The notes under the pieces were generated by a model, which was not told the DNA's origin, made no database searches, and worked only from the letters and a program-made list of their open reading frames with translations. Positions 39,925-46,958 of a stretch of DNA of 64,000 bases are shown here, one piece after another. The stretch's first letter is position 1; each line of letters begins with the position of its first letter. The translations under genes and the position numbers were made by a program. Origin of the DNA: Nocardioides sp. Kera G14 (GTDB taxonomy: Bacteria; Actinomycetota; Actinomycetes; Propionibacteriales; Nocardioidaceae); NCBI RefSeq assembly GCF_020715565.1, contig NZ_CP085839.1, forward strand, positions 1,922,001 to 1,986,000, written 5' to 3'.

Positions 39925-40119
39925 TCATCTCTGGAGCCGCAGCGCAAGGGCCGGGCAGACCCCGACGACCTGACGCGCACGGGCCATCTCGTCCTCGCCC
40001 AGTTCCGGCGGCAGCAGGGGGAAGCCCCAAGGGTCGGTACCGATGCGCTCACCCCACAGTTGAGCGCACAGTCCGTGTCCGTCGCAACGCGTCCAGTCGA
40101 CCTCGAGTCGCGCGCTCAC
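39925..40119 (-). CDS. ferredoxin, three-Cys [3Fe-4S] type
   Basis: 64 residues with a GTG start overlapping the NuoF-like stop by 4 bases. Cys12 and Cys18 (RCDGHGLC) and Cys55 followed by Pro (GVCPALAL) give the C-x5-C...CP pattern of small single-cluster actinobacterial ferredoxins, where a third spacing residue replaces the fourth Cys. Best fit is one [3Fe-4S] cluster. Context: last gene of the ApbE, heme membrane protein, NuoF-like, ferredoxin operon, so it probably passes electrons from the NuoF-like flavoprotein to the membrane. Confidence 0.9.
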   Translation of the reverse strand: MSARLEVDWTRCDGHGLCAQLWGERIGTDPWGFPLLPPELGEDEMARARQVVGVCPALALRLQR

Positions 40120-41366
40120 GCCGCACCCCCCGAGGTCAGCGGAAGCACGCCGCGGGTCGGGCGGCCGCAGCCACGACCCAAGCGGTGTAGCTCGATCTCC
40201 TCGGCGTACGCCGTCAGACCCGTGCCCAGGAACCGCACGGCTCCCGTGGGGTGGGCACACGCGCCACGACCGGAGATCAGCCCGGCCCGTCGCTTGAGTG
40301 CGTCCACGTCCGGGAGCGCGCCGGCGTGGAGGGCGCCCAGGTCGCGCGCGAGGGAGTCGAGCCCGAAGACACACGGTCCGCACTGCCCCGCCGATTCGCG
40401 GGCGAGCCACTGCCCGACGCGGGCGAGCTCCCCGAGGGCGCAGGTGTCATCGGGAAGTACGGCGACCACGCCGGCGCCCCAGGCCAGTCCGGCCGCCTTC
40501 AGCGCCGATCGGTCGACCGTCAGATGGGCCGCGGACGACCAGACGCCGTGATAGCCGCCGATCAGCACGGGCCGGCCGTCGAGTGCGCCGGTGAGGTCTC
40601 GGAGCCGCAGGCCGTGCGGCACCTCGATCACGCCGCGATGGGGCACGTCGCCGACGAGCGTCACGAGCGTGGTGCCCGCCTCATGCGGGAGTCCGCCCGT
40701 CAGGCCCGAGTCCGCGAGGACGCCCAGCGCGGCGAACGTCTCCACGTTCGACGCGAACGTCGGTCGTCCCAGGAGTCCCCGCTCCGTCGGCAGCACGCGA
40801 CGCCCCTCGGGCACGGCGGGGCGGTTCTCGAGCCCGTTGATCGCCGCCCGGACCTCGCCGGACACGAAGCCGCCCTCCGAGCGCACCACCCGGATGTCGC
40901 GAGCATCGCGACGCTCCGCGCAGGCCGCGAGCAGGGCGTCCGCCGAGACCGGGTCGTGCACGGTGATTGTCGCGCCGCGCGCGCTGAGGGCGGTGGCGAC
41001 CACGACGACCCCGTCGATGACCCGGTGGGGCGCCGACCGCATCAGCACGCGGTCCTTCCAGCTCGAGGGATCGCTCTCGCTGCCGTTGACGAGCACCTCG
41101 GCACCCGGACCGACGGCGGCGAGCTTCGCGCTCACCGGGAACCCGGCGCCGCCGCGCCCCAGGAGGCCTGCTTCGCGGGTCGCCGTACACAACCAGGCAT
41201 GGGTGCGCGGGATCGGCGCGCCCGCGAACCCTCGGTGCTCGGGGTAGCTCACCGGTCGGTTGCCGGAGGTGCCCGCCAGCAGCACCGCCGGCCCGACGGA
41301 CAGCACCGGCGGTGTGGCGGAGTGGCGGGTCCGCCGCTGCGTGTTCGGGCTTGTCGTCATGGTCAT
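40116..41366 (-). CDS. NuoF-like (NADH dehydrogenase 51-kDa family) flavoprotein
   Basis: 416 residues from ATG 41366. The FMN/NADH domain is shown by EAGLLGRGGAGFPVSAKLAAV and the following VNGSESDP. The SLBB region lies in the middle, and the iron-sulfur domain at the end has QCGPC (Cys329, Cys332) and Cys370 in GRGACAHPTGAV. The first Cys of the canonical SCGxCxPC motif is Ala (ESAGQCGPC), leaving three recognisable ligands. No other Nuo genes are nearby, so this is not complex I. A cytosolic NAD(P)H-oxidising input module for the neighbouring ferredoxin and heme protein is inferred. Its start overlaps the upstream stop by 4 bases (ATGA). Confidence 0.88.
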   Translation of the reverse strand: MTMTTSPNTQRRTRHSATPPVLSVGPAVLLAGTSGNRPVSYPEHRGFAGAPIPRTHAWLCTATREAGLLGRGGAGFPVSAKLAAVGPGAEVLVNGSESDPSSWKDRVLMRSAPHRVIDGVVVVATALSARGATITVHDPVSADALLAACAERRDARDIRVVRSEGGFVSGEVRAAINGLENRPAVPEGRRVLPTERGLLGRPTFASNVETFAALGVLADSGLTGGLPHEAGTTLVTLVGDVPHRGVIEVPHGLRLRDLTGALDGRPVLIGGYHGVWSSAAHLTVDRSALKAAGLAWGAGVVAVLPDDTCALGELARVGQWLARESAGQCGPCVFGLDSLARDLGALHAGALPDVDALKRRAGLISGRGACAHPTGAVRFLGTGLTAYAEEIELHRLGRGCGRPTRGVLPLTSGGAA

Positions 41367-41953
41367 CGAAGGGCTCCGATCGGTTGGTGATGGTCCAGCC
41401 GCAGGCGGCCGGTCGTGTCGGGGATCCGGCGCGGTGGAGCGCCGAGCCGGAGTGCGGCGGCGGTGACCACCGTGGCGCCGCAGAGGACGTACGTCGCGGC
41501 GCCCCACCAGGTGCGGGTGTCGGTGCCGCCGAAGATGCCGTGGGCCATGCTCAGCGCCCAGCCGAGGTACGCCGACGTGTGGACGATGCGCCACGTGCGA
41601 GCAGCGCGCGCCGACCCAGCCAGCCGGTGGCGCAGGCCGCCCGAGAGGCCCGTGAGGATGAAGGCATAGAGCGCGAAGACGCCGAGGGCGACGGCGACGG
41701 GGCGATAGCCGGCCGCGAACGGGAACAGGAGCGTCGTCGCAGGCACGCTGACGTAGGCATCCGCCAGTGTGGCCGCGATGTGCAGACCGAGCACGACGAG
41801 GCCGAGGACGCCCACGCTGCGATGGACGAGTTGACGTATCAGCCGCGATTGTCCAGCGCCGCCACGAGTGGCGAGCGCACCGAGCGCGGTCGACGCGGTG
41901 AGGGCGAGCAGGGCGACAAAGCCGAGTGCGCGAATGAGGTACCAGAGCGTCAT
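41363..41953 (-). CDS. ferric-reductase-like di-heme transmembrane protein
   Basis: 196 residues with about six transmembrane helices and no soluble domain. Paired histidines at His44/His58 and His125/His138, 13-14 apart on two helices, match the bis-heme spacing of the ferric-reductase/NADPH-oxidase membrane domain. It lacks the FAD/NAD domain normally fused to it; that role may be filled by the NuoF-like protein and ferredoxin encoded immediately downstream. The start shares a base with the ApbE stop (TGATG). It should carry electrons across the membrane, probably to an FMN protein outside. Confidence 0.85.
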   Translation of the reverse strand: MTLWYLIRALGFVALLALTASTALGALATRGGAGQSRLIRQLVHRSVGVLGLVVLGLHIAATLADAYVSVPATTLLFPFAAGYRPVAVALGVFALYAFILTGLSGGLRHRLAGSARAARTWRIVHTSAYLGWALSMAHGIFGGTDTRTWWGAATYVLCGATVVTAAALRLGAPPRRIPDTTGRLRLDHHQPIGALR

Positions 41954-42867
41954 CAGGCGGCCCTCGACTCCGACGGCCAGGTACCCCACGTCGTGACATC
42001 GTGGCGGTGGTCGACGAGCCTCGCGGGAAAGCGGCGCTCGCGGATCCGACGGCCGGCGGCGATGTCGTCGACCAGCGCCCAGGTGCTCACCACGTTGGCG
42101 GTCAGCGCCGAGGGGGCGGCGATGCTGGCGGTGCGCCACATCCCGGACGCCGGCTCGCCCGTGCGCGGGTCGACCACGTGATGGGCCGGCCGGCCGTCGG
42201 GACCGGTCCAGCGCCGGCCCACCAGCGAGGAGGTCGCCAGGCCGCCACCGGTGAGCCCGATCCGGACCGAGGGTCCCCCCTCGATCTCGGCGACGTCGAC
42301 GAGCCAGTCGTGCTTGCCCGCAGCCGAGAGGTCGCCGCCGATCCCGACCAGCGCCGGGGCGCCGTACTTCCGAAGGATGCGGCGGGCCGCCTCGTCCGCA
42401 GTCCAGGCCTTGGCGGTCGCGCCGAGGTCGAGCCGCATCCCCCGCGGTACGCCGAGCCGGCACAGCGTTCGGTCGACGCGGACCCGGTTCCAGCCGGGCG
42501 CGGGTTGCGGAGTCACGGCGGGCGTCCCCGTGCGGGCTCGAACGGTAGCGATATCGGCGTCGTACCCGAGCCCGATGAGCGCTGTGCCAATGGTCGGGTC
42601 GACTGCGCCGTCGGTGTCACGGGCGGCGTCGAGTGCGACGTTGACCAGGTGGAGCGCGAGCGGACTGACCGGCACGAGCTCGCCGGCATGGTCGTTGACG
42701 CGCTCGAGCTCGGAGTCGGCGCGGAACCGGCTGGCGGCGGCCTCGACCTTCCCCATCAGCTCGCTGACGATCCGCGTGGCGCCGTCGAGGTGACGGGGCT
42801 CGATCACGGCGACCGTGACGGCGCACGACCAGTCGCGCCACGCCGCGAGGTTCGGGGATGCCCTCAT
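41953..42867 (-). CDS. apbE: FAD:protein FMN transferase
   Basis: 304 residues. ApbE transfers FMN from FAD to a Thr/Ser in a DxxSGAT-type motif of a target protein. Recognisable blocks: ASRFRADSELERVND, VDPTIGTALIGLGYD, RLDLGATAKAWTADEAARRI, GIGGDLSAAG, HHVVDPRTGEPASG and ASIAAPSALTANVVSTWALV, with the conserved metal-binding Asp/Thr near the end. No signal peptide or lipobox is visible, so flavinylation may occur in the cytoplasm before export. The probable target is the FMN-binding protein at 46482, which has DTVSGAT. It overlaps the small gene upstream (ATGA). Confidence 0.93.
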   Translation of the reverse strand: MRASPNLAAWRDWSCAVTVAVIEPRHLDGATRIVSELMGKVEAAASRFRADSELERVNDHAGELVPVSPLALHLVNVALDAARDTDGAVDPTIGTALIGLGYDADIATVRARTGTPAVTPQPAPGWNRVRVDRTLCRLGVPRGMRLDLGATAKAWTADEAARRILRKYGAPALVGIGGDLSAAGKHDWLVDVAEIEGGPSVRIGLTGGGLATSSLVGRRWTGPDGRPAHHVVDPRTGEPASGMWRTASIAAPSALTANVVSTWALVDDIAAGRRIRERRFPARLVDHRHDVTTWGTWPSESRAA

Positions 42868-43172
42868 GAGGAGTGGCTCGATCCGCTCGCTGAGCCGTTG
42901 CTGCCGGAGTTGACCGTCGAGCCGGTGTCTCCGGAGGTGGTGCCACTCGCGCTGTCATTGCTCGAGCTCGTCGTACCGCTGTCATAGCCGCTGTAGGAAC
43001 CGCTGCCGGATGAGGTCGTGGTGGATGTGGTGGTCGTCGACGTCGTCGCCGCGGTCGACGCGGTCGAGTCATGGGCTGCGACCGTGAGGGCCGCGGTGCC
43101 CAGCAGGCTGGCACCGACAGCGCCGAACAGCCAGCGACGGGCGCGGATGAGGGGACTTGGTTTCGTGGACAT
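42864..43172 (-). CDS. small secreted Ser/Thr/Gly-rich protein
   Basis: 102 residues. A basic start (MSTKPSPLIRARRW) and one hydrophobic helix (residues 15-33), then about 65 residues made almost only of Ser, Thr, Gly, Asn and Asp with a Tyr-Ser-Gly-Tyr patch. It is first in the apbE operon and overlaps apbE by 4 bases, so it is likely translated. Low complexity prevents family assignment; it resembles the Ser/Thr linker of the FMN-binding protein at 46482. Perhaps a wall-spanning or glycosylated tether. Confidence 0.65.
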   Translation of the reverse strand: MSTKPSPLIRARRWLFGAVGASLLGTAALTVAAHDSTASTAATTSTTTTSTTTSSGSGSYSGYDSGTTSSSNDSASGTTSGDTGSTVNSGSNGSASGSSHSS

Positions 43173-43216
43173 GTCTTCACCGTGGGGGCTCGGTCTATGA
43201 GACTCATGTGGAGCCT

Positions 43217-43236
43217 TGATGAACGGTCACTCATCA
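43217..43236. promoter_or_regulatory. inverted repeat in the divergent promoter of the electron-transfer operon and two-component genes
   Basis: TGATGA (43217-43222) and TCATCA (43231-43236) are inverted repeats around eight bases, with a nearby TGAGACTCA symmetry just upstream. They lie in the 194-base region between divergent starts at 43172 and 43367. A response-regulator site is the natural guess; otherwise nothing clear is seen in this gap. Confidence 0.35.
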
Positions 43237-43366
43237 GGAACGCATAGGAAGCGGCTGGCGCACGCCAAGACGAGCGTCCTCGGATGGCCACGTGCGGGCT
43301 CGCGGCCCGTCGACACGGCTAAGGTCGATTCCCGACGGTCCGTACGAACCACTTGACGGAGGTGTG

Positions 43367-44090
43367 ATGAGCGAGCGCCCGCAGTTGACGCGCCCTGACG
43401 GGTCGCCCATGCGTGTGCTGGTCGTCGAGGACGAGGACACACTCGCGCAGCTGCTGTCGATGGCGTTCAAGTACGAGGGTTGGGAGGTCCTGACCGCCGG
43501 CGACGGCCCGAGCGGCGTCCGGGCCGCCCGGGACTTCCGGCCCGACGTGGCGGTCCTCGACGTGATGCTGCCGGGCTTCGACGGACTCGAAGTACTCAAG
43601 AGGCTGCGCGCCGAGACGATCGCCGCACCGGTCCTCTTCCTGTCCGCGAGGGATGCCGTGAGTGACCGCATCGCCCGGCATCACCGCCGGCGGCGACGAC
43701 TACGTCACGAAGCCGTTCAGCCTCGAGGAGGTCGTGGCCCGCGTGGGCGGCATGCTGCGCCGGGTCGGAGCGGCCGCCTCAGGAGATGACAGTCTGATCG
43801 TCGTCGGCGACCTCACCCTGGACGAGGCCAGCCGCGAGGTGACCCGTGGCGGTCAGCAGATCGAGCTCACTGCGACCGAGTTCGAAGTCCTGCGTCACCT
43901 GATGCTGAACCCACGCCGTGTGCTGTCCAAGGGACAGCTGCTGGACAGTGTGTGGCACTACGACTTCGGTGGTCAGACCAACGTGGTCGAGCTCTACATC
44001 TCCTACCTGCGGCGCAAGATCGACGCGGGTCGCCCCCCGATGATCCACACCGTTCGCGCCGTCGGATACGTGCTCAAGCCGGCGGAGTGA
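43367..44090 (+). pseudogene. OmpR/PhoB-type response regulator, frameshifted
   Basis: The start ATG at 43367 has GGAGG 5 bases upstream. The first 103 codons give a normal receiver domain: acidic pocket VVEDED, phospho-acceptor Asp65 in AVLDVMLPG, and LFLSARDAV. Then a run of three C at 43674-43676 (one base too many) shifts the frame. Continuing in the next frame restores GITAGGDDYVTKPFSLEEVVARV and a complete winged-helix DNA-binding domain to 44090, and the summed length (about 240 residues) is normal. The shifted frame reads on for about 35 further codons of nonsense to a stop near 43789. Either a recent inactivating insertion or a sequencing error. The histidine kinase follows directly. 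Confidence 0.88.
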
Positions 44091-45571
44091 TGTTCGGACG
44101 ACGCCGTGCCGACGATGCGCCCCGTGGCCGTCGGCACTCGCTGCGGCTCCGACTGGTGATCGTGCTGGTCACCCTGCTCGCCGTTGTGTCGGCACTGGTC
44201 GGGTTGATCACCGTCGTCGCGTTGCGGGGGTTCCTCGTCGGACGCCTCGACGCCTCTCTCACCGCGGCCGGGCAGCGCTCTTCGCAGGCCGGCACCCTGA
44301 CGTCGGATGACGACGACCCGACGAATGCCGGTGGCAACCACTTCCTCCTGGCGCCCGGTCAGGCCTCGGGCACGCTCGGTGCGCGCGTCGTGAGCGGCAA
44401 GCTGACCCAGGTCGGGGTCCTGAAGGACGATGGGTCCATCCAGAACATCTCGATCGAGTCCGTGAGCGTGCTGCTGCACGTGGCCGTCGATGAGCGGCCG
44501 CACACCATCAACGTCGGGAGCTTGGGAGACTTCCGGGTCCTCGCCGCGCGCTCACCCGACGGCGACGTGCTCATCACCGGACTGCCGCTGGACGACGTCG
44601 ACCGCGTCGTTCTCCGGCTGATCGCGCTGGAGGTCGCGGTGGCGGCCGGAGCGATCCTGGCGGCCAGCATCGTGGGCGCGATCATCGTCCGGCGCACGCT
44701 GCGTCCGCTGCAGCGTGTGGCCGGCACGGCAGAGCGGGTCAGCACACTGCCGCTCTCCCAGGGCGAGGTCGCGCTGACCGAGCGGATCGAGCGTCGCGAC
44801 GTGGACGACCGCACCGAGGTCGGTCAGGTCGCCGGCTCGGTCAACCGTCTGCTCGACCACGTGACGGGTGCCCTGACGGCCCGCCACGAGAGCGAGACGA
44901 AGGTCCGCAGGTTCGTCGCCGACGCCAGCCACGAGCTGCGCACCCCGTTGGCGGCCATCCGCGGGTACGCCGAGCTCACCCGCCGCATCCGCCACGACGC
45001 ACCCCCGCAGATCACCTACGCGATGGAGCGGGTCGAGTCGGAGGCCGCACGCATGACCACCATGGTGGAGGACCTTCTGCTCCTGGCCCGTCTCGACACC
45101 GACCCCGTGCTCGCCAGCGAACCGGTCGACCTGACGCACCTGCTCCTCGACGTGGTCAGCGATGCGACCGCCAGTGGGCCCGACCACAACTGGCGGACCA
45201 GATTCCCCGAAGCCCCGGTCCACGTGAGGGGGGACGCCGCGAGCCTTCATCAGGTGCTCGCGAACCTGCTCGCGAACGCGCGCGTCCACACGCCGCCCGG
45301 AACCACCATCACGGCGAGCCTGAGCGCCACCAACTCGACCACAGCCGTCATCACCGTCGTCGACGACGGACCCGGCATCCCGGAGGACCTCGTCGCGACC
45401 GTGTTCGAGAGGTTCGCTCGCGGCGAGTCCTCGCGCAGTCGAGCCTCCGGAAGCACGGGACTCGGTCTCGCCATCGTGCGCGCCATCGTCGAGGCACATC
45501 ACGGCACCGTTGAGGTGACCACCAGGCCCGGACAGACGTCGTTCGTGGTGCGCCTTCCTGCGATCGAGTAG
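44090..45571 (+). CDS. sensor histidine kinase
   Basis: 493 residues; its ATG shares a base with the response-regulator stop (TGATG). Topology: helix 1 (residues 20-45), an extracytoplasmic sensor loop of about 125 residues rich in Asp/Gly, helix 2 (172-200), HAMP linker. Then HisKA with phospho-acceptor His281 in ADASHELRTPLAAIRGYAELT and a complete HATPase_c (N box LANLLANARVHTPPG, G1 VVDDGPGIPEDL, G2 GSTGLGLAIVRAI). Its partner regulator is frameshifted, so signalling may currently be broken. The stimulus is unknown; the neighbours suggest redox or envelope state. Confidence 0.93.
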   Translation: MFGRRRADDAPRGRRHSLRLRLVIVLVTLLAVVSALVGLITVVALRGFLVGRLDASLTAAGQRSSQAGTLTSDDDDPTNAGGNHFLLAPGQASGTLGARVVSGKLTQVGVLKDDGSIQNISIESVSVLLHVAVDERPHTINVGSLGDFRVLAARSPDGDVLITGLPLDDVDRVVLRLIALEVAVAAGAILAASIVGAIIVRRTLRPLQRVAGTAERVSTLPLSQGEVALTERIERRDVDDRTEVGQVAGSVNRLLDHVTGALTARHESETKVRRFVADASHELRTPLAAIRGYAELTRRIRHDAPPQITYAMERVESEAARMTTMVEDLLLLARLDTDPVLASEPVDLTHLLLDVVSDATASGPDHNWRTRFPEAPVHVRGDAASLHQVLANLLANARVHTPPGTTITASLSATNSTTAVITVVDDGPGIPEDLVATVFERFARGESSRSRASGSTGLGLAIVRAIVEAHHGTVEVTTRPGQTSFVVRLPAIE

Positions 45572-45646
45572 GCGGCGCCCCGCAGTCATACGCTTTCGAT
45601 AAGGACGCGACACGGCCGCGCTAATCAGCCGGCCCGCTGTGAGGTC

Positions 45647-46402
45647 ATGACCATCACAGCCTCGCCGGTGGCGACACCGAGCGAACTCCCCTCACTCGCC
45701 CCGGCGATTCCCGGCACGCCGATCCTCGACGTCGTCATCCCGGTCTACAACGAGCAGGCCGCCCTCGAGACGTCGGTCAGGAGGCTCCACGCCTACCGAC
45801 TCCAGGCTCGTGGAGGGCACTGGTTCGAGTGGCGGTTCCTCACCCCTGCGCTGTTCCTGCAGCCGCATCCGTTCTCGCTCTCGTCCCATCCCCACGACAA
45901 CACCATGCGGATCACGGTGCGCAATCTGGGAGAAGGTACAGGGCGACTGCGCCATGTCAGACCGGGCACCCGTGTGTTCATCGAAGGCCCCTACGGGAGG
46001 TTCACCGACTCGGCGCGTACTCGGGACCGACTGGTGCTCATCGGTGCGGGCATCGGCATCGCCCCGGTGCGCGCCGTCTTGGGTGCCACCCACCTCGAGG
46101 CCGGAAAGGCCGTCGTCATCCTGCGCGCCTCCACCCCCGGTGAGCTCTATCTCGCCGACGAGGTTCGCGCAATCTGCGCGGAACAGGACATCGACCTCGT
46201 CGAGCTCGTCGGGAACCGAGCCGGGGCGAGCTGGCTCCCTGCGACGCACGTCGGCCAGCACCTGGACGACCTGGTCCCGTGGGTTGCCGACGCCGATGTC
46301 TTCGCCTGCGGCCCCGAGGCGTGGATGGAGGCCGTCTTCGAGGATGCCCGCGTCTGCGGCGTGCCGAAGAGCCAGATGCACCGCGAGAGCTTCGCCTGGT
46401 GA
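45647..46402 (+). CDS. chimeric remnant: glycosyltransferase-2 N-terminus fused to ferredoxin-reductase C-terminus
   Basis: 251 residues. Residues 1-50 (ending ILDVVIPVYNEQAALETSVR then RLHAY) are the start of a family-2 glycosyltransferase of the polyprenyl-phosphate-mannose type. From residue 53 the sequence becomes the latter part of an FNR/ferric-reductase flavoprotein: FEWRFLT, HPFSLSS (FAD), GAGIGIAPVRAVL (NAD), ACGPEAWMEAV. The rest of the glycosyltransferase, the membrane domain and the first half of the FAD barrel are missing. A deletion joining two formerly separate genes at about 45797 explains this. The product may be non-functional because the FAD barrel is incomplete; the frame remains open. 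Confidence 0.8.
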   Translation: MTITASPVATPSELPSLAPAIPGTPILDVVIPVYNEQAALETSVRRLHAYRLQARGGHWFEWRFLTPALFLQPHPFSLSSHPHDNTMRITVRNLGEGTGRLRHVRPGTRVFIEGPYGRFTDSARTRDRLVLIGAGIGIAPVRAVLGATHLEAGKAVVILRASTPGELYLADEVRAICAEQDIDLVELVGNRAGASWLPATHVGQHLDDLVPWVADADVFACGPEAWMEAVFEDARVCGVPKSQMHRESFAW

Positions 46403-46423
46403 GCGGCGCTCGAAGCCATTACG

Positions 46424-46442
46424 CGTCCGACGTCGTCGGACG
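46424..46442. promoter_or_regulatory. small hairpin upstream of the FMN-binding protein gene
   Basis: CGTCCGAC-GTC-GTCGGACG, perfect 8-base arms with a 3-base loop, 22 bases after the chimeric gene's stop and 40 bases before the next ATG. Either a weak terminator or an mRNA stem. Confidence 0.35.
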
Positions 46443-46481
46443 TCCCAGCAGCGTCACGATGTTCCAGGAAGGAGGCAGCGC

Positions 46482-46958
46482 ATGAGTGTGGGCGGCAAAG
46501 TCGCATCCGTGCTGACCGCCGCCGGCGTGATCGGCGTCGGTTGGTGGGTCGGGAGCCAGAACGACTCGACAGCGACCGTCGTCACTGACACGTCGACGAG
46601 CAGCGGCTCGACCAGCGTCTCTCCGACAGCCGCCGGCAGCTCCTCGTCCGGCACCGGCACGCCCTCGGCAACTGCCTCGTCCACGGCGTCGAGCGGGACG
46701 TACACCGGCAGCACCGAGTCAGACCGCTATGGCGAACTCACCGTCACCGTGACGATGTCCTCAGGCAAGATCTCCGACATCACCTACACCTCGACGGCAC
46801 ATGACGGACATTCGCTCGAGATCGAGAGTCGTGCCATCCCGACTCTGAAGTCCGAGGCCGTCGAGGCCAATTCCGCCGACATCGACACCGTCTCCGGCGC
46901 GACGTACACCTCGACGAAGTACAAGACGTCACTGCAGTCCGCTCTGGACAAGGCCTGA
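46482..46958 (+). CDS. exported FMN-binding domain protein
   Basis: 158 residues, ATG with GGAAGGAGG 6 bases upstream. N-terminal helix (residues 6-24) anchors or exports it, then a Ser/Thr-rich linker (29-75) and an FMN-bind domain: DRYGELTVTVTMSSGKISDI, then ESRAIPTLKSEAVEANSADI, with the flavinylation motif DTVSGATYTS, in which Thr141 is the expected covalent FMN site. ApbE, encoded at 41953, is the enzyme that would attach it. It probably accepts electrons from the di-heme membrane protein outside the membrane. Confidence 0.9.
   Translation: MSVGGKVASVLTAAGVIGVGWWVGSQNDSTATVVTDTSTSSGSTSVSPTAAGSSSSGTGTPSATASSTASSGTYTGSTESDRYGELTVTVTMSSGKISDITYTSTAHDGHSLEIESRAIPTLKSEAVEANSADIDTVSGATYTSTKYKTSLQSALDKA

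Follow-up and report, generated by a model that had tools for sequence, protein, structure and literature searches.

The described systems closest to the genes reported here are the MsrQ-like flavinylation clusters. In the accessible parts of Meheust et al. (2021, eLife, PMC8238504), 1797 such clusters are counted, of which 1437 contain a domain binding nicotinamide adenine dinucleotide (NAD) and 31 a NuoF-like protein; 670 genomes are stated to keep ApbE, the transferase attaching flavin mononucleotide (FMN) to proteins, without a known substrate. A related gene set is located in a 64,000-nucleotide stretch of Nocardioides sp. Kera G14 (RefSeq assembly GCF_020715565.1, contig NZ_CP085839.1, positions 1922001-1986000 of a single-contig genome of 3.47 Mb), which is referred to as the window. 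Its minus strand carries a five-gene operon (39925-43172) with overlapping stop and start codons at the gene borders. In the order of transcription, the genes specify a small protein with a low-complexity tail (the tail protein), ApbE, a membrane cytochrome, a NuoF-like protein, and a ferredoxin. The genes for ApbE, the di-heme-type membrane protein, the NuoF-like protein and the ferredoxin constitute one conserved operon. The fifth gene, overlapping apbE and overlooked in the first-pass annotation of this DNA, may encode an ApbE substrate of a new class that serves as a natural flavin tag; judged from sequence, the chance that this is correct falls just short of even.

What the operon shares with the MsrQ-like systems containing a NuoF-like protein, which occur mostly in Actinobacteria according to the accessible parts of PMC8238504, is a cytochrome of the ferric reductase superfamily, ApbE, and the NuoF-like protein as NAD(P)H donor; the cytochrome is of the six-helix PF01794 type. 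An FMN_bind protein, typical of MsrQ-like systems, is not part of the operon and is encoded only on the opposite strand in the window, whereas a ferredoxin and the tail protein are present, neither of which is named for those clusters in the same parts of the paper. The first-pass annotation had regarded the combination of genes as unlike any known system, a view that had to be abandoned given the published clusters with NuoF-like proteins. The basic kit is already known; what is new is the tail protein.

One genome per species was scanned for relatives of the NuoF-like protein. From 109 confirmed relatives the best 80 were kept, and profiles built from them were used to count partner genes anywhere in the fetched stretches (numbers with L), several of which are cut contigs. 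Of these 80 loci, 76 gave a match for ferredoxin, 73 for the cytochrome and 70 for ApbE, the ApbE match of L063 being one linked to FMN_bind. All three partner genes share the strand of the NuoF-like gene and lie no more than 3 kb from it in 66 of the 80; in L067 they are found on the opposite strand. The profile search of the fetched stretches gave no ApbE match in L065, L076, and L094. Within stretches of 21 kb, the NuoF-like gene stands alone in L070 and L097, and it is accompanied by the ferredoxin gene only, without cytochrome and ApbE, in L082 and L091, the two loci labelled Chloroflexi. The co-occurrence across genomes that had been anticipated therefore holds for the four operon genes, which are mostly found together, but fails for FMN_bind. 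The 80 loci come from Nocardioides, Aeromicrobium, Kribbella, Leifsonia, Trebonia, Acidithrix, Paractinoplanes, and metagenome genomes; most labels are those of Actinomycetota classes and of Dormibacterota, and individual contigs are assigned to Acidobacteriota and Myxococcales. The operon is uncommon: among 396 genomes from the phylum, an exact DNA signature was detected in 4, the source genome included, a lower bound because this test is strict.

Two other arrangements were seen during these searches. In L082 and L091, a second NuoF-related open reading frame (ORF) is located beside the NuoF-like protein and the ferredoxin. ApbE-cytochrome pairs that belong to the same superfamily, but have no NuoF-like or ferredoxin gene beside them, are present in L178 (5935-7436), L189 (6902-8376), L193 (156-1753), L196 (5866-7259), and L197 (6197-7737), and in L178 and L189 short ORFs with a transmembrane segment and a tail precede the pair.

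The tail protein of the window consists of a short basic N-terminus, one transmembrane segment, and a low-complexity tail rich in Ser, Thr and Gly, which ends in SASGSSHSS. It belongs to no family in Pfam or NCBIfam searches. Most loci contain an ORF of this build directly upstream of ApbE, with a basic start, one transmembrane segment and a tail composed of Ser, Thr, Gly, Pro, Ala, and Gln. A search that ignored the C-terminus returned candidates in 62 of the 80 loci, 58 of them not more than 700 nt upstream of the operon; these 58 were used for all tail statistics, L037, L095, L100, and L106 being dropped for position. The 58 proteins contain 281 Lys and Arg residues before the transmembrane segment and 48 after it, and the tail is therefore predicted to be outside the cell.

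The tails often end in [ST]G[GA]S or a related sequence, similar to the ApbE target motif and far more frequent than chance would give. Among the 30 tails from lineages other than Kribbella and Nocardioides/Aeromicrobium, 15 end exactly in [ST]G[AG]S, with a mean of 0.05 in shuffled tails, and 20 contain [ST]G[AG][ST] within the final eight residues (shuffled mean 0.54). The exact ApbE core, [ST]GA[ST], is found near the end in seven loci (L067, L069, L076, L084, L094, L105, L155). In Kribbella and Nocardioides/Aeromicrobium, 27 of 28 tails conform to a looser terminal pattern, [ST][GNH][AGSQ]S, for which shuffling gives about 1.3; these rows are close kin representing few independent events, and one of the 20 Kribbella rows is labelled Streptomyces. 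A further 13 operon copies, not part of the discovery set, were inspected. Four end in [ST]G[AG]S (L155, L178, L186, L194), and seven end in variants: SSNAS (L146, its tail being nearly that of L060 and not an independent case), GSHAS (L152), TTSGS (L153), PSSGS (L154, L157), SSGSHHG (L156), and TTSAS (L181). In L180 the motif is inside the tail, and L182 (TSHGGG) is without it. The endings are the same where the tail gene is placed downstream of the ferredoxin gene (L061, L075) or divergently (L101), and a subgroup carries SGGSG within the tail and ends differently.

An automated scan requiring the motif detected it in 59 of the 80 loci and not in 21, several of which are cut contigs; L037, L105 and L108 could be added by eye, as could L074, L079, L083, L087, and L092, which have an internal motif or SEGS. 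As controls, 25 similar candidates more than 1.5 kb away from the operon were examined, two of which contain the motif, and 464 kb of the source genome (20 stretches and the window) yielded 13 candidates, again two with the motif, one being the window tail itself; the motif pattern was wider in both controls than in the shuffled-tail test.

Such endings resemble the flavin tag of ApbE biotechnology, a short ApbE motif at a protein terminus. In the accessible text of a 2025 ApbE review (PMC12052999), a tag of seven residues works best at the protein end, Ser is accepted, and replacing the Asp of the motif by Ala has a minor effect only. That tag is man-made, whereas the tail protein would be its natural counterpart. 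The substrates with DUF2271 and DUF3570 are also comparable, since there, too, an orphan ApbE is encoded beside a protein with an [ST]GA[ST]-type motif and no FMN_bind; according to the accessible parts of PMC8238504 these are defined domains of about 135 and 420 amino acids, whereas the tail protein is a transmembrane anchor followed by a low-complexity tail with the motif at its end. Full-text literature searches, which covered few subscription journals, listed no title or abstract opening that describes the tail protein or any disordered or C-terminal-tail ApbE substrate, and the accessible parts of the three papers cited here mention none.

The identity of the ApbE substrate was approached from the known substrate families in 48 of 50 genomes picked from the 80 loci. 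These contain 137 ApbE matches: 70 contiguous ones, some from outside the operon, and 34 C-terminal and 33 N-terminal parts of matches broken in the middle (split hits), among them the operon ApbE of L068, split because of unknown bases. A profile search for the FMN_bind domain found none in 23 of the 48 genomes, and the other 25 all carry the split-hit ApbE type. Among 41 FMN_bind matches, 33 lie within 6 kb of a split-hit ApbE and none within 6 kb of a contiguous one; conversely, none of the 70 contiguous ApbE matches has FMN_bind within 6 kb, and one has it within 10 kb. A single ApbE match and no FMN_bind were found in 13 genomes, of which 12 were searched for other substrates, the 1.7 Mb genome G067 being left out. 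Over the cut-offs, there was no NqrB/RnfD, DUF2271 or DUF3570 in these 12, and Flavodoxin_4, which together with FMN_red is named as a further substrate class in the accessible part of a recent study (mSystems 2024, PMC11334425), was present in two. Ten of the 12 were thus negative for FMN_bind, NqrB/RnfD, DUF2271, DUF3570, and Flavodoxin_4, with FMN_red not searched. NqrB/RnfD (PF03116) was not found over the cut-off in 15 genomes including the source genome, apart from two weak matches below it. Because FMN_bind is missing or paired elsewhere and the known families were mostly not found, the operon ApbE seems, on this sequence evidence, to need another substrate.

The His and Cys motifs noticed earlier in the membrane protein and the ferredoxin are conserved: H44, H58, H125, and H138 of the cytochrome are kept in every relative with a residue at these positions (72-73 relatives), and the three ferredoxin cysteines in 76, 76, and 75 of 76 relatives, the last with one gap, while the position of a would-be fourth Cys is never Cys in these 76. 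A Pfam search with the window cytochrome gave no match, but 37 of 49 members of its alignment match PF01794 at E<=1 (best 2.1e-10), those of L071 and L113 exceeding the curated cut-off; 27 members also match Ni_hydr_CYTB and 18 DUF4405. The predicted fold is NOX/STEAP/b561-like, with SpNOX, b561 and STEAP as the top-ranked structural relatives (VIA-align). The operon cytochrome shares with SpNOX, STEAP and NOX the fold and the paired heme-type His in a six-helix membrane domain, but its chain lacks the domain for NAD and flavin adenine dinucleotide (FAD). This FAD/NAD half had been described as missing from the membrane protein, and it is indeed absent, but it was not lost, since the family is short as a rule; the NuoF-like protein and the ferredoxin replace it. 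In several loci (L071 8841-9932, L113 8883-9974, also L065, L078, and L106) the cytochrome continues in frame into a C-terminal extension of about 150-200 amino acids, which probably lies outside the membrane and for which searches with L071 and L113 gave no Pfam match.

The NuoF-like protein matches Complex1_51K (PF01512; E 1.8e-30) and NADH_4Fe-4S (PF10589; E 2.9e-12), and its AlphaFold2 model has a predicted local distance difference test score (pLDDT) of 89.3. With the NuoF equivalog profile it reaches 145.1 bits, the cut-off being 558.65. NfnB, NiFe hydrogenase subunit B, and bifurcating HydB are among its four closest solved relatives by sequence. It shares the FMN domain and the C-terminal iron-sulfur (Fe-S) domain with NuoF, HydB and NfnB, but its CxxCxxC...C set for the N3 cluster is incomplete, the first Cys being replaced by Ala. 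C309 is invariant (79 of 79 relatives) and C400 nearly so (76 of 78). The operon is without other Nuo genes, as had been noticed before. The ferredoxin sequence had no match in the PDB at E 0.01.

From this gene set we infer a transmembrane relay oxidizing NAD(P)H, the outer carrier of which would be a flavin-tagged disordered protein; for the mechanism as a whole, the chances appear evenly balanced. The FMN of the NuoF-like protein would take hydride from NAD(P)H and pass on single electrons via its Fe-S site to the three-Cys ferredoxin, which would reduce the inner heme of the cytochrome, and the two hemes of the MsrQ/NOX-like protein would carry the electrons to the outside. The path from NADH via flavin, Fe-S and heme in the first-pass annotation was, in view of the conserved operon, a sound inference up to this point. 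In the membrane-anchored tail protein, ApbE would put FMN on a Ser or Thr that is C-terminal or close to the C-terminus. There, the FMN would gather electrons for delivery to an acceptor within the cell wall or outside it; this acceptor might be Fe(III), a quinone, an oxygen species or a protein. Sitting on the tip of an unfolded, membrane-anchored tether and without a flavin-binding fold, it could act as a swinging carrier between the di-heme cytochrome and the wall.

Several observations weigh against this proposal. Ten of the 30 tails from other lineages lack [ST]G[AG][ST] among their final eight residues, and loci such as L082, L091, and L097 are without any tail by these scans. The window tail ends in SHSS, and its branch mostly has [ST][NH][AGS]S at the end (26 loci in Nocardioides and Kribbella), the strict [ST]G[AG]S ending being absent from all 20 Kribbella and 8 Nocardioides/Aeromicrobium rows; in this branch, FMN could sit on the final Ser or on the Ser/Thr located three residues earlier. 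Asp of the substrate motif Dxx[ST]GA[ST] is not among the features of the endings, and the window tail contains neither it nor the rest of the motif. An N-terminal hydrophobic segment over the threshold was found in none of 70 ApbE relatives, and by eye the window ApbE also lacks one, so that with the tail outside FMN would have to be attached before or during export. This puzzle is not peculiar to the operon, because the FMN_bind-linked ApbE proteins likewise start without an obvious signal segment by eye. As to alternative substrates, FMN_red is a known class outside the families searched, and of the 12 genomes with an orphan ApbE, nine belong to Kribbella or its near relatives and the other three are metagenome genomes, completeness not stated. 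Finally, the first N3 ligand of NuoF corresponds to Ala326 in the window and to Ala in 75 of 79 relatives, leaving the cluster type of the NuoF-like protein uncertain.

Some of these points would suit a tail protein that is a structural partner, an anchor, wall spacer or export helper, with its motif binding the cytochrome or ApbE, and an ApbE that modifies another target or serves flavin trafficking: the tail composition is variable, the motif is non-canonical in the family of the window, and ApbE has no signal segment. Such a role appears unlikely, though it retains some weight, since in many lineages each position of the ending agrees with the ApbE core, well beyond what shuffling of the tails gives, and the other operon products offer no conserved motif of this kind. 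A column-wise search for an [ST]GA[ST]-type motif in these four gave 3 of 81 rows at best, and modification of the cytochrome, the NuoF-like protein or the ferredoxin by ApbE was rejected for lack of such a motif.

A tail protein flavinylated by ApbE is also to be preferred over the carrier named in the first-pass annotation, the FMN_bind protein on the plus strand. In that model, electrons from the operon would go to the FMN_bind protein after its flavinylation by the operon ApbE. A span of 7 kb in the window accommodates both units, the DTVSGAT motif is intact, and L063 and L101 also have a unit of FMN_bind and ferric reductase near the operon. Nevertheless, absence from nearly half of the genomes and pairing with the other ApbE type led to its rejection as an operon partner and outer carrier, its gene in the window follows a chimeric ORF, and an intact ferric reductase-FMN_bind-ApbE set exists elsewhere in the source genome, all of which makes this route improbable. 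Least probable is a reverse or internal relay, with a cytochrome fed from the exterior or by quinol and a NuoF-like protein producing NADH or reduced ferredoxin: direction is not readable from sequence and the kin of the NuoF-like protein, such as NfnB and the hydrogenase subunits, would allow it, but SpNOX, b561 and STEAP, the top structural relatives of the cytochrome, transport electrons outward.

The features of the region are compiled in Table 1. Reading of the ORFs reproduced the coordinates, minus strand and overlapping codons given before for the genes of ferredoxin, NuoF-like protein, membrane protein and ApbE, as well as the FMN_bind gene with its motif; the proposed single module of five gene types dissolved into two units on opposite strands.

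Table 1. Features of the operon region in the window, and the operon containing the closest kinase relatives seen in two other stretches
Feature	Position	Strand	Basis and remarks
Tail protein, small, exported, 102 aa	42864..43172	-	ORF, overlap with ApbE; proposed ApbE substrate
ApbE, FAD:protein FMN transferase	41953..42867	-	PF02424, E 3.9e-42
MsrQ/NOX/STEAP-like membrane cytochrome, 196 aa	41363..41953	-	Four invariant His; without FAD/NAD half
NuoF-like NAD(P)H:FMN protein, altered Fe-S site SAGQCGPC	40116..41366	-	PF01512 and PF10589, Cys columns
Single-cluster ferredoxin, C11/C17/C54, GTG start	39925..40119	-	PF13459 (Fer4_15), E 1.3e-10
OmpR-type response regulator, neighbour outside the system	43292..44090	+	Two ORFs, Response_reg and Trans_reg_C
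Histidine kinase, neighbour	44087..45571	+	HisKA, HATPase_c, HAMP
Chimeric ORF, 251 codons, neighbour	45647..46402	+	FAD_binding_8 and NAD_binding_1
Exported FMN_bind protein, DTVSGAT, Thr141, neighbour	46482..46958	+	PF04205, E 8.1e-10
Regulator-kinase-GT39-GT2-like operon	L149 6447-12617; L150 6000-11836

The plus-strand genes look like deletion leftovers of two other operons, because of the chimeric ORF, the kind of operon in which the kin of the kinase reside, and intact ferric reductase sets elsewhere; an assembly error may also account for them. Compared to an intact relative in L150, the frame of the response regulator changes near 43675, which may be a sequencing error or indicate a pseudogene. 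The closest relatives of the kinase seen (456 and 500 bits) are those of L149 and L150, in operons with GT39 and GT2-like genes, both assigned by eye and without a family search. The two-component genes were considered as regulators of the relay, but with such kin they are probably unrelated to it; related regulators and kinases are also found near some operon copies, L153 among them. The first 50 or so residues of the chimeric ORF resemble the start of a family 2 glycosyltransferase and match the GT2-like ORFs, and the rest is the FAD/NAD half of a ferric reductase, whose ten best matches in other genomes are all within open frames of 472-635 amino acids. This ORF is probably a deletion scar. 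In six of six stretches taken, one of them from the source genome, a ferric reductase gene adjoins the FMN_bind gene. The intact set of the source genome is located at about 3154527-3157223 (L128 8527-11223), with a FAD/NAD half only 36% identical to that in the window. The FMN_bind gene of the window looks like a remnant of a separate ferric reductase system.

The ApbE substrates named in the accessible literature are folded domains or membrane subunits. If the proposal for the tail protein is true, a disordered tether tipped with FMN would be a new route for electrons through the Gram-positive wall, and one simple enough to engineer. The tail protein could then also supply the substrate for some of the genomes with an orphan ApbE counted in the accessible parts of PMC8238504.

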